Source of the DNA: a virus
Length of the DNA: 46,995 nucleotides
Reading direction: 5' to 3' (one strand)
IMG/VR virus record: IMGVR_UViG_3300030116_001948
Coordinates: 42,799-89,793 of that record
Shown here: positions 12,470 to 26,800 of the stretch, one piece after another
Layout: the number at the start of each line of letters is the position of its first letter
Position numbering within the stretch: the stretch's first letter is position 1
Program-made: the position numbers and the translations under genes
Notes under the pieces: model-generated
What the model was told of the DNA's origin: nothing
The model's input: the letters and a program-made list of their open reading frames with translations, nothing else
Database searches by the model: none

Positions 12470-12536
12470 CAAATATTGACTTTTCATATTCAATATCGTT
12501 GAAAACATTCGTTTGAATATTCTAAGTCAATATTTG
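12470..12536. repeat. Large inverted repeat in the divergent control region
   Basis: Left arm 12470-12493 and right arm 12513-12536 match over 24 positions: 13 perfect (CAAATATTGACTT), three mismatches, 8 perfect (ATATTCAA), around a 19-base centre. It is too AT-rich and lacks a T run for a terminator. As DNA it is a strong dyad suited to a dimeric regulator or a cruciform. Confidence 0.7.
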
Positions 12537-12611: not shown

Positions 12612-13067
12612 ATGTCTAATAAAATAGCGTTAAAAGATGCGTGGACTATGCTTAATAGTCGTGACATCAACATCAAGGATTACTTAGTAAACACTAAGAT
12701 GCGTCCAACCACTACTACTTGCAGTAGTGCTAAGGTTCGCAATAAACTTGCTGAGAATGTCACGTTAGGTTCTATCAGCGGTAAAACACTTCATTCCCAG
12801 AATGAACTATATTCTGATAAAGAGTATAGATTTATCTATCTGATAACCCTACGATCCGACAGTTGGACGAGTGCAACGTTCCGTCCGTCATTAGAGAAAT
12901 ACCTTGCATTAAAGAATTTGCAAGTTATCACCGAGGACGGCGACGGTAATAAGATTGAATATCAGTCTTATCCATACAATAAGGACGAATCAGTAAACCT
13001 GATTACCTTGTATGTCCAACCATCCAACGATAATGTTGGTGAGTTAGAATTTGACGATGAAGAATAA
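12612..13067 (+). CDS. First early gene, unknown protein with acidic tail (151 aa)
   Basis: ATG at 12612 with AAGGGAG seven bases upstream. The gene is clearly richer in G+C and more varied in codons than its neighbours. The N-terminus is helical (KIALKDAWTMLNSRDINIKD), a Thr/Cys-rich loop follows (RPTTTTCSS), then a beta-rich C-terminal half (YRFIYLITLRSDSW, LQVITEDGDGNKIEYQSYPY) and the acidic end GELEFDDEE, like tails of proteins that bind partners at replication sites. Not recognised. As the first early gene, set apart by a hairpin after it, it is probably abundant and may act on the host. Confidence 0.75.
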   Translation: MSNKIALKDAWTMLNSRDINIKDYLVNTKMRPTTTTCSSAKVRNKLAENVTLGSISGKTLHSQNELYSDKEYRFIYLITLRSDSWTSATFRPSLEKYLALKNLQVITEDGDGNKIEYQSYPYNKDESVNLITLYVQPSNDNVGELEFDDEE

Positions 13068-13331
13068 TTATCGTTAATCTAACAGTACTATGGTATCAGC
13101 AGAGATGTTGGTACCATAGTGCAACCATCGGTGCTATCGCATCGAAGAACTTTTTAAACCATTAGTAATGCCTTTTATAAAAACGCCTTGCTATTGGTGT
13201 ATGAAATAACTATTATAACTTATGCCGACCAGTATCACAACAGATCACACTATCCTATCAATATACCTATATCAGTTAATCCACAATATTGGTCGGCAAA
13301 GAATTGTATTAATAAAACAAGAGGGTGCACT
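13068..13331 (+). promoter_or_regulatory. Gap with two hairpins between early genes
   Basis: No convincing gene. A 9-bp stem (ACTATGGTA at 13087-13095 with TACCATAGT at 13112-13120) follows the first early gene and a T5 run lies about 30 bases further on, so partial termination is possible. A second perfect 9-bp inverted repeat (TGCCGACCA at 13223-13231 with TGGTCGGCA at 13290-13298) encloses 58 bases just upstream of the next ribosome site. Direct CATCG repeats lie between them. Confidence 0.5.
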
Positions 13332-13676
13332 ATGCCATATAACAAAATAAAAGAATATGCCTTGAAGATAAAAACAGCGTACAAAGGTAAGAACGCTGGA
13401 TTTGCATATTCTTACATTAACAATTACCTAATGAATGTGCTAAAAGTATTAACGCTTAGCACAGCAACAATAGTAACAACGATAGTTCTATTTGTACGAT
13501 TTGATACGAAATACTCTATGTTTACAGCAGAGTATATGAATACCATATCGTCAGTAGCACTTGATTTGTCACTATGGTTTTTCTTCTTTATCAGCATAAT
13601 GATCATGCTAAAAATAGCAGAGATTGTCTATGATAGTCTAGAACGTCTACGAAAGGATATGTTCTATGAATGGTGA
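13332..13676 (+). CDS. Small protein with two membrane segments (114 aa)
   Basis: The start chosen is the ATG at 13332, which has AAGAGGG upstream; an upstream TTG at 13188 in frame runs through the hairpin gap and has no ribosome site. The first about 35 residues are basic and cytoplasmic in character. Two hydrophobic segments follow, near residues 36-58 (VLKVLTLSTATIVTTIVLF) and 82-105 (VALDLSLWFFFFISIMIMLK), then a charged tail. Early membrane proteins of phages often alter the host envelope or block superinfection; here this is only inference. Confidence 0.65.
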   Translation: MPYNKIKEYALKIKTAYKGKNAGFAYSYINNYLMNVLKVLTLSTATIVTTIVLFVRFDTKYSMFTAEYMNTISSVALDLSLWFFFFISIMIMLKIAEIVYDSLERLRKDMFYEW

Positions 13677-13845
13677 AGAAAAAAAGCCAAGAAAGAAACA
13701 CGTACCAAAAGATAAAAATATGGACGTGAATCTTACGTTTGATGAGTTACCAGATGAACAGTTTGACTTTAACGATGAGGTTATTGAAACCTATGTCAAT
13801 GTTAAAGCCAAAACAAAAACAATAAGGATACTCAAAGATGACTAA
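13666..13845 (+). CDS. Small charged early protein (59 aa)
   Basis: ATG at 13666 inside the end of the membrane-protein gene, with AAGGA just upstream, and an 8-base overlap with the next gene. Basic N-terminus (MNGEEKKPRKKHVPKDKN), acidic middle (FDELPDEQFDFNDEV), basic end. The chain of short overlaps on both sides supports it being a real gene. Function unknown. Confidence 0.65.
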   Translation: MNGEEKKPRKKHVPKDKNMDVNLTFDELPDEQFDFNDEVIETYVNVKAKTKTIRILKDD

Positions 13846-14038
13846 AAAAGCAATATACCACACAAAGTTGCAACATTCTACACTATTTAGTGATTGGTTT
13901 AAACATCAATACAATATTGACTTAAAACCATTACAAAAAACAGCAGATAACGCATACGATCCAGCGTTAAATGTAGTGTGTAAGAAAATGTCAAAACCTT
14001 TGATGTGGGCGATATACTATAATGTGGTGAACAAATGA
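13838..14038 (+). CDS. Small early protein (66 aa)
   Basis: ATG at 13838 overlaps the end of the 59-aa gene. Sequence begins MTKKAIYHTKLQHSTLFSDW and has KKMSKPLMWAIYYNVVNK at the end. Soluble, slightly basic and aromatic. It runs into the next gene through an ATGA overlap. No motif recognised. Confidence 0.65.
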   Translation: MTKKAIYHTKLQHSTLFSDWFKHQYNIDLKPLQKTADNAYDPALNVVCKKMSKPLMWAIYYNVVNK

Positions 14039-14301
14039 AAAGAGAACCATTAAGAACAGTATGTCCAACGTGCAGAGAAGTTATAGCCGAAAGTAAATAT
14101 AACTATGAAACACAACAATACCATTGGTATACAGTGGAAAATGTTTGTTGTGATGATAGTTTAGAAACCTTGGCTAAAACTTCTATGAATGAAGTTATTG
14201 TGACAAACAATAACAAAGAGAGTGATGTACCAAGTTTAAAAGATGAGGCAGACAAAGGCGAAATAGAGCCTTCTTTTTATTCTTGGGAAATCAATAGATG
14301 A
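14035..14301 (+). CDS. Small putative zinc-binding protein (88 aa)
   Basis: ATG at 14035, four-base overlap with the previous stop. Residues near 9-13 read VCPTCRE and a CC pair lies near residue 38, so four cysteines could hold a zinc ion in a ribbon-like N-terminal half. The C-terminal half is acidic and probably disordered. Such small zinc ribbons often contact host RNA polymerase or nucleic acid, but this one is unknown. Confidence 0.65.
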   Translation: MKREPLRTVCPTCREVIAESKYNYETQQYHWYTVENVCCDDSLETLAKTSMNEVIVTNNNKESDVPSLKDEADKGEIEPSFYSWEINR

Positions 14302-14444
14302 ACAAGATAGTGTATAGCGGTTCTCTCTTGCCGCTATATGCGATTATATTTTATAGCCAAGTTATCTACGATAGCCTGAAGCCTAGGCAAATGTATACAG
14401 TAAAAAGCTGGTTGGCGTATACACTTGGCTATAAAATAAACTAA
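14298..14444 (+). CDS. Possible small membrane peptide overlapping a folded element (48 aa)
   Basis: ATG at 14298 overlaps the preceding TGA (ATGA). It encodes MNKIVYSGSLLPLYAIIFYS and more, with one possible membrane segment. The whole second half of the frame coincides with the perfect 16-bp inverted repeat and inner stems described separately, so the open frame may be accidental and the RNA or DNA structure the real feature. Confidence 0.35.
   Translation: MNKIVYSGSLLPLYAIIFYSQVIYDSLKPRQMYTVKSWLAYTLGYKIN
14347..14438 (+). other. Branched, long-stem intergenic element A
   Basis: A perfect 16-bp outer stem pairs 14347-14362 with 14423-14438. Inside are three smaller stems: TATC/GATA (14363-14366, 14370-14373), GCCT/AGGC with a 7-base loop (14374-14377, 14385-14388), and GTATAC/GTATAC (14393-14398, 14417-14422) whose loop contains TGGTTGGC. 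The outline is cloverleaf-like but lacks tRNA signature bases (no GTTCGA arm, no CCA). It could be a small non-coding RNA, a processing site, or a DNA element. Confidence 0.55.
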
Positions 14445-14456
14445 AAGGGAAATAAA

Positions 14457-14687
14457 ATGTTTAAAAAAATATTACATTGGTTAGGTATTAAAAAAAGCAA
14501 CAACGAATCAATACTTGAACTAATACAAGAAAGACTTCGACACGGTGCTATAGAGCACGGAGAAGAAGTACCATTAGACGGTACAAGAGATCACTTGCAA
14601 GATGCTATTGAAGAGGCGTTAGATATGATAGTATATCTTGCAGCAATGTTAATTGAGTTACAAAATAAAACAAAGAGGAGGCAGTAA
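14457..14687 (+). CDS. MazG-like nucleotide pyrophosphohydrolase-type protein (76 aa)
   Basis: ATG at 14457 after AAAAGGGAAATAAA. The core reads ERLRHGAIEHGEEV, then GTRDHLQDAIEEALDMIVYL. The helical E-E-A-x-D-x-x-x-Y pattern is that of short phage proteins in the MazG/all-alpha NTP pyrophosphohydrolase group, which in the family use acidic residues on two helices to bind Mg and cleave NTPs. The protein is short and may need to form dimers. Positioned in the early operon, it could tune nucleotide or ppGpp levels. The assignment rests on pattern only. Confidence 0.5.
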   Translation: MFKKILHWLGIKKSNNESILELIQERLRHGAIEHGEEVPLDGTRDHLQDAIEEALDMIVYLAAMLIELQNKTKRRQ

Positions 14688-15724
14688 TGAGCTTTAATGA
14701 TGTAAACTTTACAAACCTTAAAATTAAGTTTGGTAAAGCTATGAGTAAAACACTTGGTTCAAACAAAGACGGTTCACCAATAAAGGTACACGGTTATGGT
14801 TGGAGCCAACTTAGTGTTATACAAGATATGTTTAAAAGCTATGCAACTAAAATTGACTTACACGAAAAGTTTAAATCAATTATGGAACATACTAATATCA
14901 AAAGTATCAAACTTGAATACAACGGATATGGTGATGACGGTTGTTTAGAAAACGTAGAATTTCGTGATAAAAATGGTGCACAAATACATCCATCGCATAT
15001 AATGAGACATTTTTATATGCACACACATCACGGTGAAAACGTAAAACCAGAAACCGTAATTAACTATTCGTTATGGGAAACTGATGAACATACAAGATCA
15101 CTAAGAGAACACATAGAAAAACGCAAACAATATCTTATAGATATGGAACCAGAAGCGTTTGCTACTATGGATCTAGAAGACTGGTCTAACGGCGTTGTAC
15201 AAAGCGTTTTAGACTTAGGATGGTCAATACATGAAATCACAACGGTACCTGGTAGTGGTGAACGTGGCATTACATTGCGTAGAACACAATCATATGTATA
15301 TGATGAGTTTACACACTTTGATACAAGAATTTTACAATTGATGTATCCAAGAGTACGCAAAGATGAATGGGAAAATATTGATGAAGCATTTTATCAAATG
15401 TTGCATCCTGGTTGGCAAAACAATCACGGTAGCCAAAACTACTTTAAAGTAGAGTTTGATAATAACAAAGTTAAACTCAATATTAACCAAGAAACAAATG
15501 TAATGGTCCAAGAGTCTGAGAAAACAGAAGTAATATTAGATGAAACACTTTCAAAAAGATTTCAAGGATTTTTAAAGGATATATTTCCTAAGAAAAAACC
15601 TTACGAAAATGTTGAATTAGATATTTCTTTGAAGAAAGATCAGCCAAAACTCAAACAATTACACGATTTTATTACAGATATGCTTAACGAAAAAATAGAG
15701 CGTAAAACTGAAGAGGTAGAATAA
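14687..15724 (+). CDS. DUF6878-like early protein (345 aa)
   Basis: ATG at 14687 overlaps the previous stop (TAATG). Two separated blocks are characteristic: KLEYNGYGDDGCLENVEF near residues 75-92 and HPGWQNNHGSQNYFKVEFDN near 242-261, followed by NNKVKLNINQ. These match my memory of the DUF6878 family found in phages and bacteria. Between them lies a long insert with a helical TRSLREHIEKRKQYLIDM and an aromatic RRTQSYVYDEFTHFD part. Function unknown; the next gene is also from a phage family of unknown function, and the two are translationally coupled. Confidence 0.6.
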   Translation: MSFNDVNFTNLKIKFGKAMSKTLGSNKDGSPIKVHGYGWSQLSVIQDMFKSYATKIDLHEKFKSIMEHTNIKSIKLEYNGYGDDGCLENVEFRDKNGAQIHPSHIMRHFYMHTHHGENVKPETVINYSLWETDEHTRSLREHIEKRKQYLIDMEPEAFATMDLEDWSNGVVQSVLDLGWSIHEITTVPGSGERGITLRRTQSYVYDEFTHFDTRILQLMYPRVRKDEWENIDEAFYQMLHPGWQNNHGSQNYFKVEFDNNKVKLNINQETNVMVQESEKTEVILDETLSKRFQGFLKDIFPKKKPYENVELDISLKKDQPKLKQLHDFITDMLNEKIERKTEEVE

Positions 15725-16062
15725 TGGACCCTCTTTATCATAGTAAAAGCAGTGTAAAGAAGTGGGGCGGTACAGTAGACGACTACATTAAGATTCATCA
15801 TTGGTTTGATGATTCTAAACGTGGTTGTTCACTACCAACTCACAGATCAATGAGACATCATACAGAAGGTATTGGCTGGTGTATTGACGTATTTGGTAAA
15901 TACATCACCAATTCTGATGGCAGAAAAGTACCAGTAAGACAAATAGGTGAACAACATGTCATAGAAGACATAGGTAAACTTATTTCAATGTCAGACTGGT
16001 TATTGCATATGTCATTAGAACCTTGGATGATGAAGGTCGGTAAACGACCGAATGAACTATAA
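15724..16062 (+). CDS. DUF6915-like conserved phage protein (112 aa)
   Basis: ATG at 15724 (TAATG coupling). Typical features: HSKSSVKKWGGTVDDYIKIH at 6-25, HWFDDSK, a histidine-rich MRHHTEGIGWCIDVFG, NSDGRKVPVRQIGEQHVIED and the end SDWLLHMSLEPWM. This order (SS-K-GG, DY-IH-W, HRS-RHH-G, VPVR-IGEQHV-ED-G, DW) matches the DUF6915 family as I remember it. The conserved His, Glu and Asp residues look like a metal or catalytic site, but no activity is known to me. Confidence 0.65.
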   Translation: MDPLYHSKSSVKKWGGTVDDYIKIHHWFDDSKRGCSLPTHRSMRHHTEGIGWCIDVFGKYITNSDGRKVPVRQIGEQHVIEDIGKLISMSDWLLHMSLEPWMMKVGKRPNEL

Positions 16063-16086
16063 TCAACCAGGATATTCCTGGTGATT
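16061..16086 (+). other. Stem-loop after the 112-aa gene
   Basis: ACCAGGA (16066-16072) and TCCTGGT (16076-16082) pair around TAT, extended by AATC/GATT across a bulged A. A second small stem GGTCG/CGACC lies in the last codons just before (16035-16049). No T run follows, so this is more likely an mRNA end protector or processing signal than a terminator. Confidence 0.5.
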
Positions 16087-16276
16087 GCGTAATAGTCACA
16101 TTACAGGTCCCTAAAATGCACAAGGTCCCTGAGTGGCTTAAATCAGAATAGAGGCAACAACGATACATGGAAGAGCTCCAGTAAATACTTCAAAATAGGC
16201 GAGTCTTATATAAGGTCCATGGAAGCCTGAATAATGAAGTATAGTTGCCTCAGTTCTGAAAGGAGAGAAAACAAAT
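16087..16276 (+). other. Folded leader-like gap with nested inverted repeats
   Basis: No gene seen. AGGTCCCT occurs twice (16105-16112, 16123-16130) and a partial third copy (AAGGTCCATGG) lies at 16212. GAGGCAAC (16151-16158) pairs perfectly with GTTGCCTC (16244-16251), and nested inside ATACTTCA (16185-16192) pairs with TGAAGTAT (16235-16242). The structure ends 10 bases before the AAAGGAGAG ribosome site of the next gene, so it would form the leader of that mRNA and could control it or be a separate small RNA. Confidence 0.5.
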
Positions 16277-16417
16277 ATGAAGTATAAGTATAATGTATGG
16301 ATTGGAGGAGTTTGCAATACTTTTTCAACCTACAAAGAAGCAATGAAAGAATATAGACATTGGACTAGCAAAGGCTATGATGATGTTATATTCATAAAGA
16401 GGAAAGTAAATGAATAA
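16277..16417 (+). CDS. Small early protein (46 aa)
   Basis: ATG at 16277 with AAAGGAGAG upstream. The product starts MKYKYNVWIGGVCNTFSTYK and has a helix EAMKEYRHWTSKGYDD, then VIFIKRKVNE: a compact beta-alpha-beta layout familiar from tiny phage proteins of unknown role. It overlaps the next gene by 8 bases. Confidence 0.6.
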   Translation: MKYKYNVWIGGVCNTFSTYKEAMKEYRHWTSKGYDDVIFIKRKVNE

Positions 16418-16655
16418 TAGAGAAAAAGCTTGGTTAAATCGTAAAGGAGATAAAACACCTGAAACGATTTACGATAGAATGAAAAAAATGAAATTTAATA
16501 ATCCTTGGTCAAAAAAAGGAATTGCTGAACGTGAAGCATTTGCAAAGAAATATGGAAGAGCTTGGTGGTTATTTACAGATAACAATTCATCAGAAAAACA
16601 TAAAGATCAATGGATTTATCAATATTGGAAAATGGAGGAAGACAGTAATGAATGA
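16410..16655 (+). CDS. Small basic aromatic early protein (81 aa)
   Basis: ATG at 16410 with AAGAGGAAA upstream. Basic first half (EKAWLNRKGDKTPETIYDRM) and tryptophan-rich end (WWLFTDNNSSEKHKDQWIYQ). The next gene starts at 16648, an 8-base overlap. Not recognised. Confidence 0.6.
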   Translation: MNNREKAWLNRKGDKTPETIYDRMKKMKFNNPWSKKGIAEREAFAKKYGRAWWLFTDNNSSEKHKDQWIYQYWKMEEDSNE

Positions 16656-17004
16656 CGAAGTAGCAGCAATATTTAGACCTATTACAAAAAAACTATATCC
16701 AAGAGAAGTAACAAATCTAAATACAGAAAAAGATTGTATGGTTAAAGCAATTGATGAAGAGTATTTAGGTGATTGGGTATGTAATTGGTGCGGTAGTGAT
16801 CAAGTGTATGAAAAAGTTTTTATTAATATGAATACACTCAAAAACGACTACAGTAAAGAAACAACAGAACCAGAATATGCTGGTGATTGTTGTGGTAAAT
16901 TTGAATATCCTATGCACCAACAAGAATGGGAAGAACAAGTAATTGAAGATTGCAATGGCAATAAAGATAAATATATGAAAATATTAGATGGAGGAAGAGC
17001 GTGA
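16648..17004 (+). CDS. Zinc-ribbon-like early protein (118 aa)
   Basis: The start used is the ATG at 16648 with GGAGG upstream; a longer in-frame extension to 16522 only shadows the preceding gene. Residues near 45-52 contain VCNWCGSD, and CC occurs near residue 84 (GDCCGKFEY), giving a possible four-cysteine zinc site. The tail is acidic (EWEEQVIEDCNGN). Similar short zinc proteins are common in early regions of environmental phages. Function unknown. Confidence 0.65.
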   Translation: MNDEVAAIFRPITKKLYPREVTNLNTEKDCMVKAIDEEYLGDWVCNWCGSDQVYEKVFINMNTLKNDYSKETTEPEYAGDCCGKFEYPMHQQEWEEQVIEDCNGNKDKYMKILDGGRA

Positions 17005-17309
17005 AAGATAAATTAACATATCAAGAAGTATACGATAGTTTTTATACTATAATTGAGAGAGATACTTATACTTGTAAAAGATGTAAAATACAAGCTAAGT
17101 ATTCTTTACATACTTTTAAAAAAGAGTATAAAAAGAAGTTCGAAAAAATGGTAAAAGAAATATACGATTGGTATATAAGAGGTCCGCAAAATGATATATA
17201 TCTTGCAGATCTTGGTACGTTTAACGATGTAATGCTAAACAAAGAACCGAAATACAATAATCACATAAACCAATATAAATGGGGAGGACTATATAATGGA
17301 GGACATTAA
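17001..17309 (+). CDS. Small early protein with a CxxC pair, GTG start (102 aa)
   Basis: GTG at 17001 overlaps the preceding TGA (GTGA) and has GGAGGAAGA upstream. Sequence: VKDKLTYQEVYDSFYTIIER, then TYTCKRCKIQAKY, a lysine-rich helix, and an aromatic tail ending WGGLYNGGH. One CxxC only, so zinc binding would need extra ligands or a dimer. Overlaps the next gene by 14 bases. Confidence 0.6.
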   Translation: MKDKLTYQEVYDSFYTIIERDTYTCKRCKIQAKYSLHTFKKEYKKKFEKMVKEIYDWYIRGPQNDIYLADLGTFNDVMLNKEPKYNNHINQYKWGGLYNGGH

Positions 17310-17742
17310 GAAAACAATGCAAAGAACAGAAGCTTGGCACAAGAAAGCTTTTGCTCTATTGCAAGGACAAAAAATAGAACACGTCATATGGAAAAAATGG
17401 GATGAAAACAGTACTACTGGTTTAGTATTAATACTAGATAGTGGAGTCGCAATATTTGTATCTATGGACGACGAAGGTAATGGTCCTGGTGCTTTACATT
17501 GGAACACTGGAAGAGAAAAATCTATGCAAATAGACATAGGTAACGGTGAAAGTGTTTTCATAGAACCAGACGGAATATTACCAGTAGGCGTTATGGAAAC
17601 AGCAGAGTGGAGACAAAAAGAAATAGAAGCTGAAAATGAAGCTATTGATAAAATTGTTGAAGCTAATAAACAAATGATTGCTAACAAAGTTGATGAAATC
17701 AATAATTTAGCAAATGAAGTGGAAGGGGTAACAAATGGGTAA
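17296..17742 (+). CDS. Early protein, beta core plus coiled coil (148 aa)
   Basis: ATG at 17296 with GGGGAGG upstream. After a basic helix, residues 28-85 form a likely beta domain (KIEHVIWKKWDENSTTGLVL, VAIFVSMDDEGNGPGALHW). The last third is a long acidic helix (EIEAENEAIDKIVEANKQMI). The next gene overlaps its end. Not recognised; dimerisation through the helix is likely. Confidence 0.6.
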   Translation: MEDIKKTMQRTEAWHKKAFALLQGQKIEHVIWKKWDENSTTGLVLILDSGVAIFVSMDDEGNGPGALHWNTGREKSMQIDIGNGESVFIEPDGILPVGVMETAEWRQKEIEAENEAIDKIVEANKQMIANKVDEINNLANEVEGVTNG

Positions 17743-17938
17743 ACTATCCGAAATGGATGCAGTAAGACAAGAATTAGATGAGCTAGATGAAAGCAGCGTA
17801 TCTGAACTTGCATTACAAGCACAAAGAACAATCAAAGATCAAATTTCTTTACTTGATGATTTAGGATATGAATTTATGTATGTCCAAGATGGTAAAGGCA
17901 GTATGATAACATCAATACGTAGAAAGAGGGGTGTCTAA
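17735..17938 (+). CDS. Small early protein (67 aa)
   Basis: ATG at 17735 after GGAAGGGGTAACAA. An acidic helical first half (EMDAVRQELDELDESSVSEL) and a beta-hairpin-like end (YEFMYVQDGKGSMITSIRRK). It joins the next gene by a shared base (TAATG). Function unknown. Confidence 0.6.
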   Translation: MGKLSEMDAVRQELDELDESSVSELALQAQRTIKDQISLLDDLGYEFMYVQDGKGSMITSIRRKRGV

Positions 17939-18414
17939 TGTCAACACGATCAAACATCGTATTTAAAAGAACCAACGAAGAAGGCTTTAAAACAGTGAAA
18001 GCAGTTTATTGTCACTTTGACGGTTATCCTGGATTCAAAAGAAATGGCGAGTTTATAGGTGGAGTTGGGTATGAATTGCTACATCATTTCAATACTCAAT
18101 CAGCGGTAGATGAAATACAACTTAAATCTATTCGTTCTATAAGTGATGCTCAGATTGAATATATGGGTGAAAAAGAAGAATCCGATTCATATGAAAGTAT
18201 AGAACAGTATTTTCGTATGACGCTAGGAGATATATGGATTGAATATATCTACTATTGGGACGGAGTTCAATGGATGATGTCTGAATTAACTTATCTAGAT
18301 ACAGATAAAAATAAGTATCAAGATATATCAGTACCAATCAGAACAAAACTCAAACCATTAGAAATGGTAATGGATGAAATAACTAGTACAATACCACCAT
18401 CTGATGAGGAATAA
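17938..18414 (+). CDS. MSTRSNIV-type conserved phage protein (158 aa)
   Basis: ATG at 17938. The N-terminus MSTRSNIVFKR, followed by AVYCHFDGYPGF and GGVGYELLHHFN, is a pattern seen in many phage early or auxiliary proteins: a beta sheet with a conserved Cys-His-x-Asp-Gly motif. The C-terminal part is acidic (WIEYIYYWDGVQWMM, TSTIPPSDEE). No biochemical role is known to me. It overlaps the next gene by 11 bases. Confidence 0.65.
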   Translation: MSTRSNIVFKRTNEEGFKTVKAVYCHFDGYPGFKRNGEFIGGVGYELLHHFNTQSAVDEIQLKSIRSISDAQIEYMGEKEESDSYESIEQYFRMTLGDIWIEYIYYWDGVQWMMSELTYLDTDKNKYQDISVPIRTKLKPLEMVMDEITSTIPPSDEE

Positions 18415-18634
18415 ACACTATGTGGTTTCAGTAGCAGAAACTCATCCAGATCCAAACTATATAGTATTATTAAAAATACTATCAGTTAAACACTATCAAG
18501 CAGCTAGAAATGCTAAGTTTCATCCTAACTATGCTACAGAGGAAGAAGCTAAAATATGGCACAAAAAGCTGCTTGATCAACTATCAAAGGAGGGATTTAC
18601 ATGGGAAATAGTCCGAGTAAAACACTTGAAATGA
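18404..18634 (+). CDS. Small early protein (76 aa)
   Basis: ATG at 18404 (the GATGAGGAA end of the previous gene supplies a weak ribosome site). Sequence MRNKHYVVSVAETHPDPNYI, then a helix with HYQAARNAKFHPNYATEEEA. It overlaps the start of the following gene by 34 bases. Unknown function; compact alpha/beta protein. Confidence 0.55.
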   Translation: MRNKHYVVSVAETHPDPNYIVLLKILSVKHYQAARNAKFHPNYATEEEAKIWHKKLLDQLSKEGFTWEIVRVKHLK

Positions 18635-19185
18635 AAAAGAAAGTACAACTATTTGGTGCGGGTAGTAAAGAACTTGTAAAGTTTTTAGATAAAAAACTTG
18701 AAGACGCACAATCTGGTTCAGTATGGTTTTGGTTACAAGGTATATACAAAGTAGAACAATATCTAAACGAAGATGGAACGCTTGACGAAATAACAATGCA
18801 AGGCGAGTTCAACGAAGAAATAGATATTGTTAAAGAATGGATAAAGGAATGGAAGGAGGAAACAGTGAAAAAAGATAATATAACTTACACTGACGTATAT
18901 GGATATGAACATACTACAACAAGAAAGTATAGTAAATTTCCATACGATATGTCTGAATGTAAGTTCCTAGATCACGAAGACATCGATTTAGATGTCAGAA
19001 ATCCTTTTAGTGGTGAATCTCATAAATTATCACCAGTAGAAGAAGCAGTATATAGAAAAGTAATAAAGGCACAATTAGAATCACCTAATTATTTTCTAGA
19101 TCCTGATGCACAAAAAATTGTACGTAAAGGTTGTGATTGGTTCAGAGCTAACAATGCTGAAGCGTACATGAAACTACTAGATTAA
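18601..19185 (+). CDS. Two-part early protein with a possible internal start (194 aa)
   Basis: ATG at 18601 with AAAGGAGGG upstream. Residues 1-88 form a helical domain (VQLFGAGSKELVKFLDKKLE). Residues about 89-194 are another domain: YTDVYGYEHTTTRKYSKFP, CKFLDHEDIDLDVRNPFSGE, and the end GCDWFRANNAEAYMKLLD, a C-terminal pattern common in marine phage small proteins. Exactly at the boundary an in-frame GTG (18865) has the strong site AAGGAGGAAACA, so the second domain may also be made alone. Confidence 0.65.
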   Translation: MGNSPSKTLEMKKKVQLFGAGSKELVKFLDKKLEDAQSGSVWFWLQGIYKVEQYLNEDGTLDEITMQGEFNEEIDIVKEWIKEWKEETVKKDNITYTDVYGYEHTTTRKYSKFPYDMSECKFLDHEDIDLDVRNPFSGESHKLSPVEEAVYRKVIKAQLESPNYFLDPDAQKIVRKGCDWFRANNAEAYMKLLD

Positions 19186-19195
19186 GGAGGAATCA

Positions 19196-19279
19196 ATGTT
19201 AGAATTACTTCTATTATTTGCAGTATGTTACGGCATATTATATGCTTGTAATTATGTAAATAAATCTGATAAAAAGTAG
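19196..19279 (+). CDS. 27-residue membrane peptide
   Basis: ATG at 19196 has one of the best ribosome sites in the arm (AAGGAGGAATCA). It encodes MLELLLLFAVCYGILYACNY followed by VNKSDKK: one membrane span and a short charged tail. It stops 8 bases before the long hairpin at 19287. Could be a true micro-protein or a leader peptide for that hairpin. Confidence 0.5.
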   Translation: MLELLLLFAVCYGILYACNYVNKSDKK

Positions 19280-19286
19280 TAAAAAC

Positions 19287-19329
19287 GCTTGGATAATTGA
19301 GTTGGGAATACTAACTTAGTTATCCAAGC
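19287..19329 (+). other. 17-bp RNA hairpin between the membrane peptide and annealing-protein gene
   Basis: 19287-19303 pairs with 19313-19329 over 17 positions (10 perfect from GCTTGGATAA/TTATCCAAGC, then two G-U wobbles in RNA) around a 9-base loop. On the rightward RNA no T run follows, so it is not a standard terminator there. Read leftward it is followed by GTTTTTACTACTTTTT, which does look like an intrinsic terminator against antisense transcription into the early arm. Confidence 0.6.
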
Positions 19330-19362
19330 TAACCAATATAAACAAATAAACGGAGGAACCTT

Positions 19363-19944
19363 ATGGGATTTAATCTGAAAGATTATGCCTTAGTTAACGA
19401 TCGTATTAAAGAGTTTCATAATATGTATCCATACGGCATGATAGTGACTAAAGTAATAGAAGTCACACAAGTAATAGATACACCAACTGGAGAACAATGC
19501 AATGAATACAGAATCCAAGCAACGGTCACGCCTAATGTACTCGAAGTACCAGAAAGATATTTCACTGGAACAGCAGCTGAGCGAGACAATACTGGCTTTG
19601 TTAATAAGACGAGTGCTATGGAAAATTGCGAGACGAGTGCCGTCGGTAGGGCACTTGCCAATATGGGTATTGGTGCAGATTTTGCCATTGCTAGCAAAGA
19701 AGAAGTTGAGAATGCTAAGGCAAAACAAGCAGTATTCAAACCTAAAGTTAAGGAACTTACAGAAATTGACACGCTTGCAAAAAAGTGTGAAAAGGCTCAA
19801 GTAATTCCCGAAGAAGCTTATCTAGCATATACTAAAAAACGTGAAAGCGGATTTTATGATACTGTTGCTAGAGTAAAAACAGCTAAGAAATACTTCGAAG
19901 ATCAACTTAAGGAGGCAGAGAATGTCAAAAAAGAAAATGCCTAG
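19363..19944 (+). CDS. ERF-like single-strand annealing / recombination protein (193 aa)
   Basis: ATG at 19363 after ACGGAGGAACCTT. The N-terminal half is beta-rich (LVNDRIKEFHNMYPYGMIVT, EYRIQATVTP). Near residues 86-110 is the block AMENCETSAVGRALANMGIG, then ASKEEVENAK. The E-x-x-E-T-S-A-x-G-R-A-L block is common in phage proteins encoded next to SSB and replication genes and often assigned to ERF/annealing-type functions. It would act on phage single-stranded DNA with the SSB-like protein 1.0 kb away. Assignment by pattern and neighbourhood. Confidence 0.55.
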   Translation: MGFNLKDYALVNDRIKEFHNMYPYGMIVTKVIEVTQVIDTPTGEQCNEYRIQATVTPNVLEVPERYFTGTAAERDNTGFVNKTSAMENCETSAVGRALANMGIGADFAIASKEEVENAKAKQAVFKPKVKELTEIDTLAKKCEKAQVIPEEAYLAYTKKRESGFYDTVARVKTAKKYFEDQLKEAENVKKENA

Positions 19945-20176
19945 TGAACATAGAATAGGTTCTATGGAACCTGGCGAAACAAAACATATAGTAAACGACT
20001 TTGGTACTTTTGTTTTAATTAAAATACCATTCGAGAAAGACGAATTACTAGATGTAGAGTTAGCAGACTATGCTAAATCAATGGATGCACTTAGCACTTA
20101 TATTGAAAATATCAATCAAGGGCTAATTGACGGTGCATCAGAACGTAATCAAGATCACGCTAATGACCAAAGATAA
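19922..20176 (+). CDS. Small early protein next to the annealing-like gene (84 aa)
   Basis: ATG at 19922, overlapping the previous gene by 23 bases, with AAGGAGGCAGAGA upstream. Sequence MSKKKMPSEHRIGSMEPGET, then a short beta part (GTFVLIKIPFEKDELLD) and acidic helix. Possibly a partner of the recombination proteins; no motif recognised. Confidence 0.55.
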   Translation: MSKKKMPSEHRIGSMEPGETKHIVNDFGTFVLIKIPFEKDELLDVELADYAKSMDALSTYIENINQGLIDGASERNQDHANDQR

Positions 20177-20187
20177 GGAGGTATCAT

Positions 20188-20712
20188 ATGGCAATTACGG
20201 GTACTAAGGTAAAGTCACAAGGTGGCGGAAATAAACCTTATTTCATTAACAAATGCTTCATTGTTGGAGCAGAACAAATCGAATCACAGTATACTGATAC
20301 AACAGTTAAATTAGAACTTGAAGACTCTACTAACGGATACAAGTCTAATTTATTCCTAAATCAAAACTATGAGAAAGATACAAACGGTGTAGTATTGGAT
20401 TTAAAATATCCAGACTTAGTAAACACATTGTATCTTGCAGCTGGTAAAGATTTAGAAGTATCTGATACTGGTGACATTAATTTAGATGTCTTAGCAAATG
20501 CAAAGATTGCAGTATTAAGTTATCAGTCTACTGGTAAATACAAACGTAATCTTTGGAACAGAGTTTCTTCTTGGGAAGATACAGATCAACTTGAGAAAGA
20601 CTTTGAAAAATCACTAAAACAAGGTTATCCACAAAACTTTCGTAAAGGAACATCAGAACCTGCCGTACCTGAAGTTCAAGAAAGTGTAAGTGTAGATGAC
20701 TTACCATTTTAA
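20188..20712 (+). CDS. SSB-like single-stranded DNA-binding protein (174 aa)
   Basis: ATG at 20188 with AAGGAGGTATCAT. The body has beta strands with aromatic and basic residues (NKPYFINKCFIVGAEQIESQ, KYKRNLWNRVSSWED). The very end, VSVDDLPF, copies the acidic D-D-x-P-F tip that SSB proteins use to recruit partners. Position among the annealing-like protein, the primase-helicase and the resolvase-like nuclease supports the call. The OB fold cannot be confirmed from sequence reading alone. Confidence 0.65.
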   Translation: MAITGTKVKSQGGGNKPYFINKCFIVGAEQIESQYTDTTVKLELEDSTNGYKSNLFLNQNYEKDTNGVVLDLKYPDLVNTLYLAAGKDLEVSDTGDINLDVLANAKIAVLSYQSTGKYKRNLWNRVSSWEDTDQLEKDFEKSLKQGYPQNFRKGTSEPAVPEVQESVSVDDLPF

Positions 20713-20978
20713 TGACTGCTAAAACTATTGTTATCAATTGGCTTGACTCTTTAGAAAACGGTGAAGTATTCTTTACCTGGAACTTTGAGAGTCAAGTACC
20801 ACATTATGGTAAAATCAAGTATAACAAAATACATACGGCAAGTACATATTCCAGAGCATTTAGAAAGTTGCGTGAAGAAAATATATTTACCGACGAGCTT
20901 ATGGGATTTGCACTAAAAGAAGTTAAATCGGCAACTAATGGGAAAATAAAAGGATGGAAGAAAATAAATACTATCTAG
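20712..20978 (+). CDS. Small replication-region protein (88 aa)
   Basis: ATG at 20712 (TAATG with the SSB-like gene) and a 25-base overlap with the primase-helicase gene. Sequence MTAKTIVINWLDSLENGEVF, then GKIKYNKIHTASTYSRAFRK LREENIF, ending in basic KGWKKINTI. The middle helix pair is winged-helix-like (aromatic loop, S-T-Y-S-R-A-F-R), so DNA binding is plausible. A primase or helicase partner role is inference. Confidence 0.55.
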   Translation: MTAKTIVINWLDSLENGEVFFTWNFESQVPHYGKIKYNKIHTASTYSRAFRKLREENIFTDELMGFALKEVKSATNGKIKGWKKINTI

Positions 20979-22792
20979 AACTAGTAGAAGGTAGTCTATC
21001 CAAACGTAACTCTATTGCTGATGTCGTTACTTATCAAAAGAAAGTTATAGACAATGCGTGGAAAGGAACAGAAATGTATCGTTCTTATTTCACATTTGGT
21101 CAAGACTTTAAAGATCACGTTGAAGAAACAGAGTCCGTAAAAGGATTTAATGGTATTGCATATATCGATTACATTATACTTGACATCGATAAAGGCGATA
21201 TACCTGACGACCATTTTATAGGATATGTTCAACAATGTATATCTGAAATGTTTGATAAGGGCGTAATGGAAGAAGACATAAACTTATGGTTTAGTGGTAG
21301 TGGTTTCCATATTGAGATGAAGAATGTTTTTGGTTTACAACCAAGCAGAGACATACACGAAAAGCTTAAACTAACAATGAATAAGCATTTCGACTTTGCA
21401 GATAGCATCTATGATAAGACAAGGATCATTCGATGCAAATGGTCGTTAAACACAAAGACAAACCTCCACAAGATATGGATTCCACTACAACTACTATCAG
21501 ACTTAGATATGGATATGATACAAGAAATATCATCGTCTCAGTCAAGCTATATGAGTTATGTCAATAAAACTCAATCAGCTATGAATACTAGTTTCTTTGC
21601 TACATTATTTACAGAACCTACAGTAGAACCTTATTTACAATCTATGGTAGTTGCATCTCCTACGATTCAGTATACAAACAAGAATACCAACACGGATTCT
21701 GATGTTACATCCGTAGTATCTTGTATGCAACACGTATTTAACGAAGGTCCTATGAAAGGTTCTAGAAATATGAAACTAATGCGAATGGTTAGTGCATATA
21801 AAAGAGCTGGTGTTCCTATGTTAGTTGCCCTTAATGGTATGTTTACCTGGGCAGATAACACAATGTCTGAAGAAGAAATAAAAAGAACAGTAACAAATGT
21901 TTACGAAGGTTCATATCAATACGGTTGTGATGACCACATTATGGCAGAATATTGCGATTCAAAATGTATTTATTACAAACGTAAAGATTATACTCTTGAT
22001 ATTAAAGGTGTAGATGCGTTAGAAGATGCACTAAGAACCTATGTAACAAAACAACTAGAGCAAAACTCTATCAAGCTGCAAGATATATATGGTTGTAATC
22101 CATATCAATTTAGTCCTGGTGAGTTAGTAATATTCTCTGGTGATACTGGTCTTGGTAAGACAGCTTTTATACAAGACTTAATTGTAAAAGCAAAACAACA
22201 GACATTGTTTTTGTCGTTAGAAATGAACGAACAACTTATTTTTAGACGATTTGTACAAATTGCTACAAACAAATCTAAAGAGTGGGTTCTTGAACAATAC
22301 AAGACTAATCCAGACTTTAGTATTAAAGATAAGTTAGATCATGTCCAAGTAATGACAATAGCACCAAGGATAGAATCTATCAAGAAAGTAGTAGCAGAAT
22401 ATGAACCTAAGGTTCTTGTTGTAGATACTACAGACGAAGTTGAAGTTGATTTTGTTAAAGGTGAAATTGAAAAACAAAATGTAGTTATTGGTGCATTAAA
22501 ACAAATAGCACAGAAAACTAATATAATAATTATAGCAATTCATCACTTAAACAAAACATCGGCAGCTAACAATGTTATTAACTTGCATTCTTTAAAAGGT
22601 AGTAGTAACGTTGTACAAAAAGCAGATAAGGTTGTATTGATTAAAGGCAACAGAAACGATCCAGCAAGAGAGATTACATCAGTAAAATCTCGTGACGAAG
22701 GTCAGTTCAAGATGTTAGCAGCATTCAATGCAACTAATATGACATTTAAACAAATAAACGGAGGAAATACATATGTTGAAGAAGTTGTTTAG
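20954..22792 (+). CDS. Primase-helicase fusion: AEP-type primase domain plus DnaB-like helicase (612 aa)
   Basis: ATG at 20954 with AAAGGATGG context. N-terminal domain: ILDIDKG (75-81) fits archaeo-eukaryotic primase motif I, SGSGFHI (114-120) fits the sxH motif, and a basic/acidic FADSIYDKTRIIR follows (148-160). Middle: GSRNMKLMRMVSAYKRAG and cysteines at 325, 334 and 338 (YGCDDH, EYCDSKC), a primase C-terminal-like or zinc part. C-terminal RecA/DnaB-type motor: Walker A SGDTGLGKTAF (395-405), SLEM (421-424), Walker B VLVVDTTDEV (488-497) and HHLNK (530-534). It should unwind and prime phage DNA. Since no polymerase was found, the host enzyme probably extends the primers. Confidence 0.85.
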   Translation: MEENKYYLELVEGSLSKRNSIADVVTYQKKVIDNAWKGTEMYRSYFTFGQDFKDHVEETESVKGFNGIAYIDYIILDIDKGDIPDDHFIGYVQQCISEMFDKGVMEEDINLWFSGSGFHIEMKNVFGLQPSRDIHEKLKLTMNKHFDFADSIYDKTRIIRCKWSLNTKTNLHKIWIPLQLLSDLDMDMIQEISSSQSSYMSYVNKTQSAMNTSFFATLFTEPTVEPYLQSMVVASPTIQYTNKNTNTDSDVTSVVSCMQHVFNEGPMKGSRNMKLMRMVSAYKRAGVPMLVALNGMFTWADNTMSEEEIKRTVTNVYEGSYQYGCDDHIMAEYCDSKCIYYKRKDYTLDIKGVDALEDALRTYVTKQLEQNSIKLQDIYGCNPYQFSPGELVIFSGDTGLGKTAFIQDLIVKAKQQTLFLSLEMNEQLIFRRFVQIATNKSKEWVLEQYKTNPDFSIKDKLDHVQVMTIAPRIESIKKVVAEYEPKVLVVDTTDEVEVDFVKGEIEKQNVVIGALKQIAQKTNIIIIAIHHLNKTSAANNVINLHSLKGSSNVVQKADKVVLIKGNRNDPAREITSVKSRDEGQFKMLAAFNATNMTFKQINGGNTYVEEVV

Positions 22793-23036
22793 CGCACAAT
22801 ATGTAGATAAAAACAATATACAAAAAGCAGAATTACGTTTGCTTAAGTTTATTGTATTGTCCACACGAATGGATAATAATTTCGGTAACCACTTATGGTT
22901 CGATACCAGATTCGGTCCAATGGAGTTTTCATTTGGTCTAAGATACTGGGACGAGTCACCAGAAGCTATTAAGAAATACGAGGAAGATTTCAACATCGTT
23001 AGTATGCAAGGAAATCTTGGCGGAAGTGACGCATAA
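22773..23036 (+). CDS. Small replication-region protein (87 aa)
   Basis: ATG at 22773 with GGAGGAAATACAT, overlapping the helicase end by 20 bases. Sequence MLKKLFSAQYVDKNNIQKAE, then FIVLSTRMDNNFGNHLWFDT and RFGPMEFSFGLRYWDESPEA. A compact alpha/beta protein with several aromatic residues. Not recognised; it overlaps the nuclease gene by 20 bases. Confidence 0.55.
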   Translation: MLKKLFSAQYVDKNNIQKAELRLLKFIVLSTRMDNNFGNHLWFDTRFGPMEFSFGLRYWDESPEAIKKYEEDFNIVSMQGNLGGSDA

Positions 23037-23370
23037 AAATAAAGTACGTGGTAACAATCTCGAACGTGAGATAGTAAACACAGCTAAGGACATGGGCATG
23101 TATGCAAAACGTGCCTATGCTTCCGACGGTAGATCGTTAGGAAAATCAGAAGTAGTTGATGTGATAGTAGAAGATACTACAATACAAGCAAAACGAAAAA
23201 AGAAAGTTGCTCAATGGTTGTATCCAGACTATCACGGAGACGATGTTGATGCAGTTGTTACACGTATGGATAGAAAAGAAGCTCTTGCTATAATACCATT
23301 AAAGAGATTCTTAAGACTATTACAAATTGAAAAGGAGAATCGTGATGGATTTGAACAAGAAAGAAGCTGA
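23017..23370 (+). CDS. QxK-type nuclease resembling a Holliday-junction resolvase, TTG start (117 aa)
   Basis: TTG at 23017 preceded by AAGGAAATC. The protein reads GNNLEREIVNTAKDMGMYAK (helix with a conserved Glu), ASDGRSLGKSEVVDVIVED, then TTIQAKRKKKVAQWL. The order E...D...Q-x-K is the PD-(D/E)xK superfamily active site in its QxK form, as in Mrr-like nucleases, and the size suits Hjc-like resolvases. It would cut recombination or replication junctions before packaging. Function is inferred from motif and neighbours. Confidence 0.6.
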   Translation: MAEVTHKNKVRGNNLEREIVNTAKDMGMYAKRAYASDGRSLGKSEVVDVIVEDTTIQAKRKKKVAQWLYPDYHGDDVDAVVTRMDRKEALAIIPLKRFLRLLQIEKENRDGFEQERS

Positions 23371-23521
23371 AGCTATACTATCAATAGCTAAGAAAATTAT
23401 TGTTGCAATAGAAAAAAATAACAATAAAATTGTAAGATCAACCGAAGATAGGCTTGATCACGATGATATTGATTTGACTGGTGTTAGAGCACCAGAAAAA
23501 TGTGAAGAATGTAACGATTAA
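23345..23521 (+). CDS. Small early protein (58 aa)
   Basis: The ATG at 23345 follows AAAAGGAGAATCGTG, a better start than the in-frame TTG at 23327, which lies on top of the ribosome site. Sequence begins MDLNKKEAEAILSIAKKIIV and ends APEKCEECND with a C-x-x-C pair. Helical and amphipathic. Function unknown. Confidence 0.6.
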   Translation: MDLNKKEAEAILSIAKKIIVAIEKNNNKIVRSTEDRLDHDDIDLTGVRAPEKCEECND

Positions 23522-23545: not shown

Positions 23546-23664
23546 ACTGCCCGCTTATGAAAATACATGTTTGGTTGGCTACTAAAACAAGACATAACTT
23601 AGTCGCTATGTCTTCGTATTTATGTATAAATAATCTTAAAGAGATTATAACGTAAGCGGGCGGT
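23546..23664 (+). other. Branched, long-stem intergenic element B
   Basis: A 12-bp outer stem pairs 23546-23557 (ACTGCCCGCTTA) with 23653-23664 (one G-U). Three hairpins sit inside: TGTTT/AAACA (23568-23572, 23585-23589) with the loop GGTTGGCTACTA, AGACATA/TATGTCT (23590-23596, 23607-23613), and ATAATCT/AGATTAT (23630-23636, 23642-23648). The plan resembles element A at 14347-14438, and both carry TGGTTGGC at or in a hairpin loop. The outer stem is the most GC-rich sequence in this gap. It lies just upstream of the last early gene. Confidence 0.55.
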
Positions 23665-23832: not shown

Positions 23833-23885
23833 AGACGTCAAGTCGTTGGATCTTCGTTTATCTCTCTCTGCTCGGCTTGACGTCT
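23833..23885 (-). terminator. Terminator-like inverted repeat at the convergent junction
   Basis: AGACGTCAAG (23833-23842) and CTTGACGTCT (23876-23885) form a perfect 10-bp stem with a 33-base loop, spanning the last codons of the giant gene. Read leftward the stem is followed directly by TTTTT, the form of an intrinsic terminator for the late transcript. Rightward no T run follows. Confidence 0.55.
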
Positions 23886-26800
23886 GACCTTTGCCATATG
23901 CCACTTAAAGCTATTATATGGTAATCCAGTCTGATATTCCACAGCGTATTTTGGATTGTTAACAGTCTTATATACATCTCTAGCAAATCTACCACCTGGT
24001 ACATAAGTCCAAGCAGTATACTTCCAGAATGCTTCATAGTCACCATTAACCATACCATTAATGTGTGGTAATATAAATCTACTTGCTGGTGGTGTTATAA
24101 TTTGCAATGGTGCTAATGCTTGTATTGGATACTGATTAAAAAATGCTTTTTTTCTAGTTTCTTCATCGCCAAATAAAAACTCCGCAGTTTCTTTCATCCA
24201 AGACATTGGTGGTGATAATGCATATTCAAATATAGAATAAGCAAACAATGTACCTAGTGCCATTGTCATCATATCATTAGCTACTTGTCTTTGGAATCGT
24301 TTTGTAACCTCAAAGTTTGGATGACCTTCTGCTGCCATCATATCTTCAAAGATCACCTTTCTTCTACGTATACTATTCCACGCATACGGCTGAAAACGTG
24401 TCATAATACGTCCAAAAGCTGTATTACTAAAGTTAGGTCTAAATGTAGCGTGATAAATAAACTGAGACGCTTCTACGCCTTTTCTAGCACTATCTACTAA
24501 AAACTCATCTGTTACTCTTACATTTCCTTCAAGATCAGAATAAATTTCTCTAGCTTTTAAATAATGTGCTAAGAATGCTTTACGTCTCAAATGTTTTTCA
24601 GTAGAAGACATAAAGAAACTACCTTTATCCATTACTGCTTTATTAACGTTATATTTTTTAGCTAACTCACCTACAGTAGTATTAACGTATTTATTAATTT
24701 TATCGTTTACTTCTTTACTATTACCATATAGTTTTTCAGCTCTAGTATGTGCAGTAACTTTCTTTACTAATTCTTTTAAAAACTTTTTAGCCTGCACAGG
24801 TTCATTTGCTTGTATATATGCCAACTCTTGTAATAGATTACCTTCAAGTAATCCTAATGAATCAATCATTTCATGTATATCTTCTCTATTACGTAGTTCT
24901 CTAAATTCAAACTTACCTGTTTGTTTATTAAATAATTTAAACTTTTGACCAGCAAATACTTCTTTAATTAAATAATTAGTGTCTCCTGATTTAAAGAAAT
25001 GATCAAACCCTGTATCAGTAATAATGTTTTGATAACCACCATAGATATTTGTAATAGCTGCTTTAGGACTAAACAATAATGATAACAATTCAAATCTACC
25101 TTCAAGATCAGAAATATACTGTGCACGATCTACTAATGCTTTATGTCTAGCTTGTACATTGTCTGGTAATGACGGAAATAGTTTCTTCCCTGTAATACCA
25201 CCATATACTTTAGATATTCTATTTTCTAGTTTTAATCCTAGATTACCAACACTTTCATCACTAAACCATTGTCTTGGTGTATTATTAATATTGAGTTTGT
25301 CTATATTTTCATCTTTAATAAACTCGTTAAGATTCTTAATAGTTTGTGTTTCTAAATATTTAGCAAACTGTTTCTTAACATTTTCATACATTTTTTGTTT
25401 TAAGTTTGCCATTTCTACTATTATTTCTTCTTTACGCTGCTCACTTTTAACAGTTTTTAATTCTTTACGTAATGCATTTAATTTATTACCATTAGTAGAC
25501 TTATACGCTCTAACAATTAATTCACGTTTTTTCATACGTTGTTCACTAGTAGTAGGTATTGATTGCTGCTCTAGATCATATAATAGTTTTTTACTTACTA
25601 CATCTAGCTTACCAACTTTCCATTCTTGGTCAAAGTTTGCTTTTTGCCAATCTTTTAATAGTTGCATTTCTTTAGCTGTAACACCGTGTACTTCTAATAC
25701 TCTTGTTGAAGGGAAACCCATATACCCTCTAGTAAAATCAATCATTGTAGCGTGCCATTTTTCAGCGTTTTCACGCATACGTGGATTCTGTTTAGATTGT
25801 GTTAAAAACTTATCTAAATAAATTCTACTATACATAGCACCAATGTTTTGCATTAAACCTCTACTTAAACTATTCATATAGTCTAATGGTACATTACCAT
25901 CACTTCTCCAACCAGGCATAGAACGTTCTAAACGTGAACGTGCGTGTGTTGTAGTACCCATACCAGGATAAGGATTCTTACCTTTTCTAGTGCTAATCTG
26001 ATTTAACATGTCCATAGCTTCTGGATCTATATATGGATTCTCATACTTGTTTTGCTCAAGAACTTTATTCTCAAGTCTTTGGTATTCTAATTCTTTTGCT
26101 TCCTTAAATGTAATTAATCTATCTCTAACATCTTCTGCAAGCTTAGCATCAGTAAGCTGCTTGTAGTTTGTTTTAGCCATAATACGTTCTTTTTCAGTTG
26201 GTAGCCATTCTTCTTGAATAAACTTTCTATTAAGTTTTGTATCCATTTGTCCCATTTGTGGAAAGAATCTATCAGATACACCATCTTCTGCAAACTTACC
26301 AACTTCACTTGACCATTCACCATACTTACCACTAAATGCTCTAATGTCTCTACGAACTTTGTCAGCCATACTAATAGTTTTCTTACCTTCTTTTATTTTT
26401 GTTCTACCTAATGCATTCCAATCTAACGAACCGTTGTTGTTTACATAGTCAGAATACTTATCAAGAATGTGATCACGTAGATTCAAATGAAACTTAATCC
26501 ATACCATATCATCGTAATGGAAGTGATTCTTTTGTACATCAAACCCAGTTTGTTTATCTGCTTGTAATCGAACAGTTTTATCAAACCATAACAATCTACG
26601 TACTTCAATTAATCCGTGTTTGTTTAAAAACAATTGTGCCATACGTTGTTGCCAATACTTTGGATGACCTTCTGGTAATGTAGTATTAGAAAAAAACTCT
26701 AATGGAAATGTAGTTTGCTGCTCAAATAATTTACCAATGTTTTTATAATTACTCTTAATCATACTATTTAAAGAGTATTCCATAATAGGTTGTATTACTT

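Follow-up and report, generated by a model that had tools for sequence, protein, structure and literature searches.

The window, the whole stretch of 46,995 nucleotides analysed here, carries a P22-like portal, an SU10-like capsid and adaptor, and a terminase family, which together identify the virus, as judged from its sequence, as a tailed phage. No host is named, because the capsid and terminase matches are all below 60% identity and lie in phages of unrelated hosts. A block of genes extends along the + strand from 12612 to 23521. About 1.7 kb into this block, a 155-base gap between genes contains the element studied here, which we call gamma (this and all other cassette names are our own). 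It stands there alone with one hairpin; the nearest array of structured segments is about 1.6 kb away. A separate conserved hairpin (14312-14339, + strand, found by alignment; fold z = −5.18) is located directly upstream of the inserted element; it shows changes on both sides of the stem in relatives such as L006, and in the window it is terminator-like by a consensus scan.

Other structures were observed around the block. More conserved hairpins lie in gaps between its genes (13087-13120 and 19287-19329), and a 13-bp inverted repeat is found in the divergent region between two gene blocks (12470-12536) and is kept in L002, L004, L005 and L009. At 23547-23663, an outer stem of 13 bp encloses several inner stems (z = −5.94); this second branched element is possibly the element B of the earlier note, and it contains TGGTTGGC, which also occurs within the gamma core, possibly by chance. 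On the minus strand, a 3444-aa open frame (23838-34172) is matched by none of the PHROGs.

The outer stem of gamma, P1, is formed by perfect pairing of 14347-14362 with 14423-14438 over 16 bp; both arms were assigned on the + strand from pairing and covariation. It is the sole perfect stem longer than 13 bp at a span of at most 250 anywhere in the window. Only one of 60 whole-window dinucleotide shuffles gave a stem of at least 16 bp at a span below 150, and by our own arithmetic the chance scaled to the 155-base gap is roughly 5 in 100,000. The fold of gamma was better than every one of 200 shuffles (z = −4.14). Thus, the perfect 16-bp stem described in the earlier note, and its judgement that such a stem exceeds chance in this gap, both hold.

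The same note described three inner stems in a cloverleaf-like layout. Two of them exist in the window sequence: the GCCT/AGGC hairpin P3 (14374-14388, GCCTG AAGCC TAGGC) and the helix P4, in which GTATAC at 14393-14398 pairs with GTATAC at 14417-14422, its apical part (within 14393-14422) being of uncertain register. The third, a TATC/GATA arm (14363-14373; 14363-14366 with 14370-14373), is missing from the minimum-energy fold of the window. It appears in that of L002, which differs from the window by one base, and it is lost in L010, L014/L012, L038 and L063. Because this arm is not common to the other sequence types, what all types share is a three-way junction in which a fourth arm is optional, and not a cloverleaf. 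All these parts are on the + strand, including the 51-nt core (14372-14422), which is identical in L010, L014 and L012. The whole element measures about 85-92 nt.

Searching with the neighbouring 345-aa protein yielded eight relatives. Among nine related sequences at the window site, gamma was present in three (the window, L002 and L003) and cleanly absent from six (L004-L009), in which the same neighbouring genes are kept and the flanks join directly where the window has 96 bp. The insertion accordingly spans 14346-14441 on the + strand (presence/absence alignment; blastn breaks at 14345/14442 against L004, L005 and L007), with edges that come from one alignment and carry an ambiguity of a few bases in the flanks. 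At a second site, gamma in L010 is replaced by a different structured segment in the close relative L091, with identical flanking bases; the two contigs are 95-98% identical across their longest matching stretches, and L091 lacks gamma. About 1.5 kb of L091 (386-1862) is noncoding; several potential stems occur there, and Rfam gave no match. The presence and absence at two sites support, at the level of sequence comparison, the view that gamma is a cassette. No clear target duplication was seen in the flanks, where one empty site was aligned and a duplication of one or two bases would remain compatible.

When viral contigs were scanned for exact matches to parts of the core, gamma was placed on nine contigs beyond the record of the window (L002, L003, L010, L012, L014, L038, L040, L042 and L063), always on the gene strand and between genes. 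The genes downstream of it differ from phage to phage. It forms part of a string of structured segments (about 0.2-0.6 kb) in L014, L012, L038 and L063; in L010, roughly 0.85 kb of sequence is noncoding, and gamma lies close to the end of it.

The covariance search in related genomes that the earlier note proposed was carried out with a model built from six copies; it recovered the known copies and no further strong ones. Across 42 sources it gave 14 matches, namely 13 known copies (some held twice) and L068 (22.4 bits), which we took as chance given its other DNA composition and the missing continuous outer stem. Among 26 whole virus records, nine had one true copy each, 15 had no match and two had only weak matches (16 bits). 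The one second match was the opposite strand of the same place, so that two copies were never found in a record. In 80 further loci, all three matches fell on contigs already known. No host homologue of the core held up in 84,980 species genomes (two patterns, with zero and five matches); the five matches were regarded as chance, four of them having no model match at E values up to 5 and the fifth being L068. A plasmid search returned no gamma, and the 3.1-kb region had no match in named phages. A 24-base match to the element in two Streptococcus satellite phage records (E = 4) was likewise taken as chance, as were the pattern matches L015, L016, L017 and L158-L160, judged by sequence and context.

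The stem and the core of gamma have evolved very differently. The window and L010 show 17 differences in the 32 arm positions and none in the 50 core positions; against L014/L012, the corresponding values are 9 of 32 and none of 50. Outside gamma, the stretches of the L010 and L014/L012 genomes that match the window are only 67-80% identical. Recent exchange between phages could be a partial cause of the identical cores. The core of L063 differs from that of the window at 5 of 49 positions and that of L038 at 8 of 49. Counted outward from the inner end with U-G allowed, P1 nevertheless retains consecutive pairs in every type (16 in the window, 11 in L010, 13 in L014, 11 in L038 and 12 in L063). 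The stem includes T-G pairs, which can form as wobble pairs only if the + strand is the one transcribed.

Covariation was analysed in alignments freed of duplicates (A5 omits L003, L040 and L042 as duplicates of L002 or L038, and A4 also omits L002). In a structure-blind MAFFT alignment of six rows, double changes were found in 5 of 25 predicted pairs. In a model-fitted alignment of six distinct rows, which leans towards its own structure and whose rows are related, 90.1% of cells pair, compared with 21-41% for structures slid along it. On this alignment, 8 of 29 pairs showed double changes (shuffle mean 3.8; 1 of 500 shuffles as high), and the covariation score was 0.228, which none of the 500 shuffles reached (0.116 for shuffles). 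The pairs of the inner helices hardly vary; P4 is invariant, and covariation therefore gives no test of it. In P3, two pairs are broken in L038 and one in L063. The fold of L038 is barely better than its shuffles, 29 of 200 of which do as well (z = −1.17), and the other types reach −2.15 (L010), −2.59 (L014), −2.81 (L063) and −3.81 (L002). The broken pairs and the weak L038 fold count against P3 being essential.

A 48-codon frame (14298-14444, + strand) overlaps the element, and the earlier note already doubted it. The frame exists and is prolonged by the insertion, and we judged it not to be a conserved gene. It is open only in the window and its near relatives L002 and L003. Among the six relatives without the insertion it is 16 codons long in five and 19 in the sixth. 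In L010, L014, L038 and L063, in-frame stops occur within the element before the core, and in L038 and L063 a 1-nt deletion in the core shifts the frame and changes the peptide while the outer stem still pairs. The earlier note had held that a frame conserved in relatives with loss of pairing would speak against its element; the opposite was found, with the frame lost and the pairing kept. Pairing maintained under change, wobble pairs that suit only the + strand and the loss of the frame support the classification of gamma as a structured RNA domain.

We compared gamma with known classes. ARAGORN predicted no tRNA or tmRNA gene in the window, L002, L004, L010, L012 or L014, which agrees with the first impression that the element is not a tRNA and leaves the suggestion of a tRNA mimic unsupported. 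In phage tRNA clusters, genes for small structured RNAs form runs among the protein genes, and these runs are polymorphic; gamma differs in that the six sequences named contain no tRNA. At the gathering score, Rfam 15 gave no match in the window, L010, L012 or L014, and on 14200-14520 there were five matches, all below threshold, the highest at 17 bits where the cut-off is 76. Under the E limits applied, the L014 array, 16040-16300 of the window and the noncoding stretch of L091 gave no Rfam match. A riboswitch was rejected because the downstream gene varies between contexts and none is fixed. The tandem RNA units of type III antitoxins were not observed, there being a single true copy in each of 9 of the 26 records. 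The literature covered, PMC2864571 included and most subscription papers lying outside it, contains no description of the gamma motif or of such cassettes, and this is weak evidence.

Gamma is not the only structured cassette of these phages. At least seven others recur (alpha, beta, delta, epsilon, zeta, eta and theta), each in two to eight contexts. A context was defined by distinct 22-base flanks, and the counts from pattern searches in the loci examined (beta 8, epsilon 7, alpha 5, delta 5, zeta 4, eta 2 and theta 2) do not represent independent events, since several come from related contigs. In the window, a second structured region with alpha, epsilon and beta cassettes (16060-16262, + strand) is arranged within two conserved stems (16093-16140 and 16143-16259) upstream of an 81-aa gene at 16410; relatives of the window retain both stems with their contents swapped. 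In epsilon, UGGA/UCCA corresponds to UGGU/ACCA, with changes on both sides. In zeta (L002 7670-7731; L095 about 659-714), both sides of a potential H-type pseudoknot change between the two contigs (GGUC/GACC and GGUU/AACC). The arrays examined had no Rfam match, and those of L014 and L002 had no match in named phages.

The explanation that we tentatively place first, at a probability somewhat below even, is that gamma is one of a set of polymorphic structured phage RNA cassettes that act in trans, its core binding a partner that is probably of the host. The anatomy of an RNA cassette is well supported; the partner and the decoy role are what we infer. Gamma would be a small structured RNA domain that a group of uncultured tailed phages exchange as a cassette, placed in the gaps that separate genes of the same strand, and it would be transcribed within the operon RNA. 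The outer stem, free in sequence and kept in pairing, would ensure a self-contained fold at any landing site, which the covariation supports. The near-invariant 50-nt core, whose conservation is observed directly, is likely to be the working surface. The core could act on a factor of the host (a nuclease, the transcription machinery or a protein of defence, for instance), and which hosts are encountered may decide whether the cassette is retained or lost.

Action in trans is suggested because the gene downstream of gamma varies, because close relatives either have or lack it and because it is one of at least eight cassettes combined differently from phage to phage. A partner that binds by sequence would be expected to hold the core fixed and leave the stem free, and a trans-acting RNA, perhaps a decoy, is therefore favoured. 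Of the options raised in the earlier note, a phage small RNA is thus the best supported, given the covarying pairing, the conserved core and the gain and loss as a unit. Such a decoy has precedents. RNA anti-CRISPRs (Racr) are small phage RNAs that counter host defence in trans (PMC10651486), and in phage PhiTE a phage RNA mimics ToxI, a structured host antitoxin (PMC3475682). Racr mimics CRISPR repeats, whereas gamma has a branched fold; type III antitoxins are described as repeats of an RNA unit, whereas gamma is single. The location of all copies on the gene strand counts against the trans reading to the extent that it fits action in cis too.

The main competitor, which we consider somewhat unlikely, is that gamma is a cis element of the mRNA that serves its own operon, either as a nascent-RNA antiterminator of the HK022 put type or as a stable or processed intercistronic structure such as an RNase III site. 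It would explain why gamma is on the gene strand, between genes and once per record, and hairpins occur in other gaps of the block too. The put RNA of HK022 suppresses termination through RNA polymerase binding. It is described as a phage RNA of about 70 nt with two stem-loops and exacting sequence (PMC9378689), and gamma is of similar size with two inner helices. The likeness compared is one of size and layout. A difference is that putL is found shortly after an early promoter, whereas gamma is about 1.7 kb inside the gene block and a consensus scan, whose consensus may not fit this phage, showed no promoter-like site at the element. We know of no put that behaves as a swappable cassette. Six close relatives have these neighbouring genes and cleanly lack gamma, which speaks against its being an essential signal of the operon. 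An RNase processing site, which the earlier note had also proposed, requires no invariant core and fails to explain a core identical at 50 of 50 positions while the stem varies.

It is improbable that gamma is instead one branch of a large ornate RNA, a peripheral domain that can be shed or regained. The copies inside strings of structured segments (L014, L012, L038 and L063) and the one near the end of a noncoding stretch (L010) would suit such an origin, but the window copy stands far from its nearest array, and the arrays have no Rfam match. We also think it quite improbable that gamma is a small mobile DNA element, MITE-like or otherwise, that is bounded by terminal inverted repeats and has no RNA function. 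MITEs and the Rickettsia palindromic elements are small palindromic insertions, some of them in frame, and gamma shares with them a clean insertion, inverted-repeat ends and several genomic sites. However, its ends are the least conserved part and its middle the most, the reverse of what a transposase requires. The conserved terminal inverted repeats of MITEs and insertion sequences were not seen, the arms of different copies diverging at as many as 17 of 32 positions. These ends change together with pairing kept, no clear target duplication was seen, and a record never holds two copies. Finally, a coding insertion, with the 48-aa protein as its product and the stem incidental, is very improbable and largely refuted: its length of 96 bp is divisible by three and one core reading frame is open in all element types, but the stops and the deletion described above destroy the peptide while the outer stem is kept.

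A broader version of the trans reading, which is speculative and rather unlikely in our estimate, is that at least eight families of RNA cassettes form a combinatorial armoury, swapped among stem "sockets" and intergenic sites, with cores that block different host proteins or defence complexes. If true, this set would correspond, at the level of RNA, to an island of anti-defence genes. Structured phage RNAs other than tRNAs are poorly catalogued. The core sequence and the covariance model open the question to direct testing, and a conserved RNA core that is gained, lost and exchanged like an accessory gene offers a handle on whether phages use RNA, besides protein, as interchangeable weapons or control parts.
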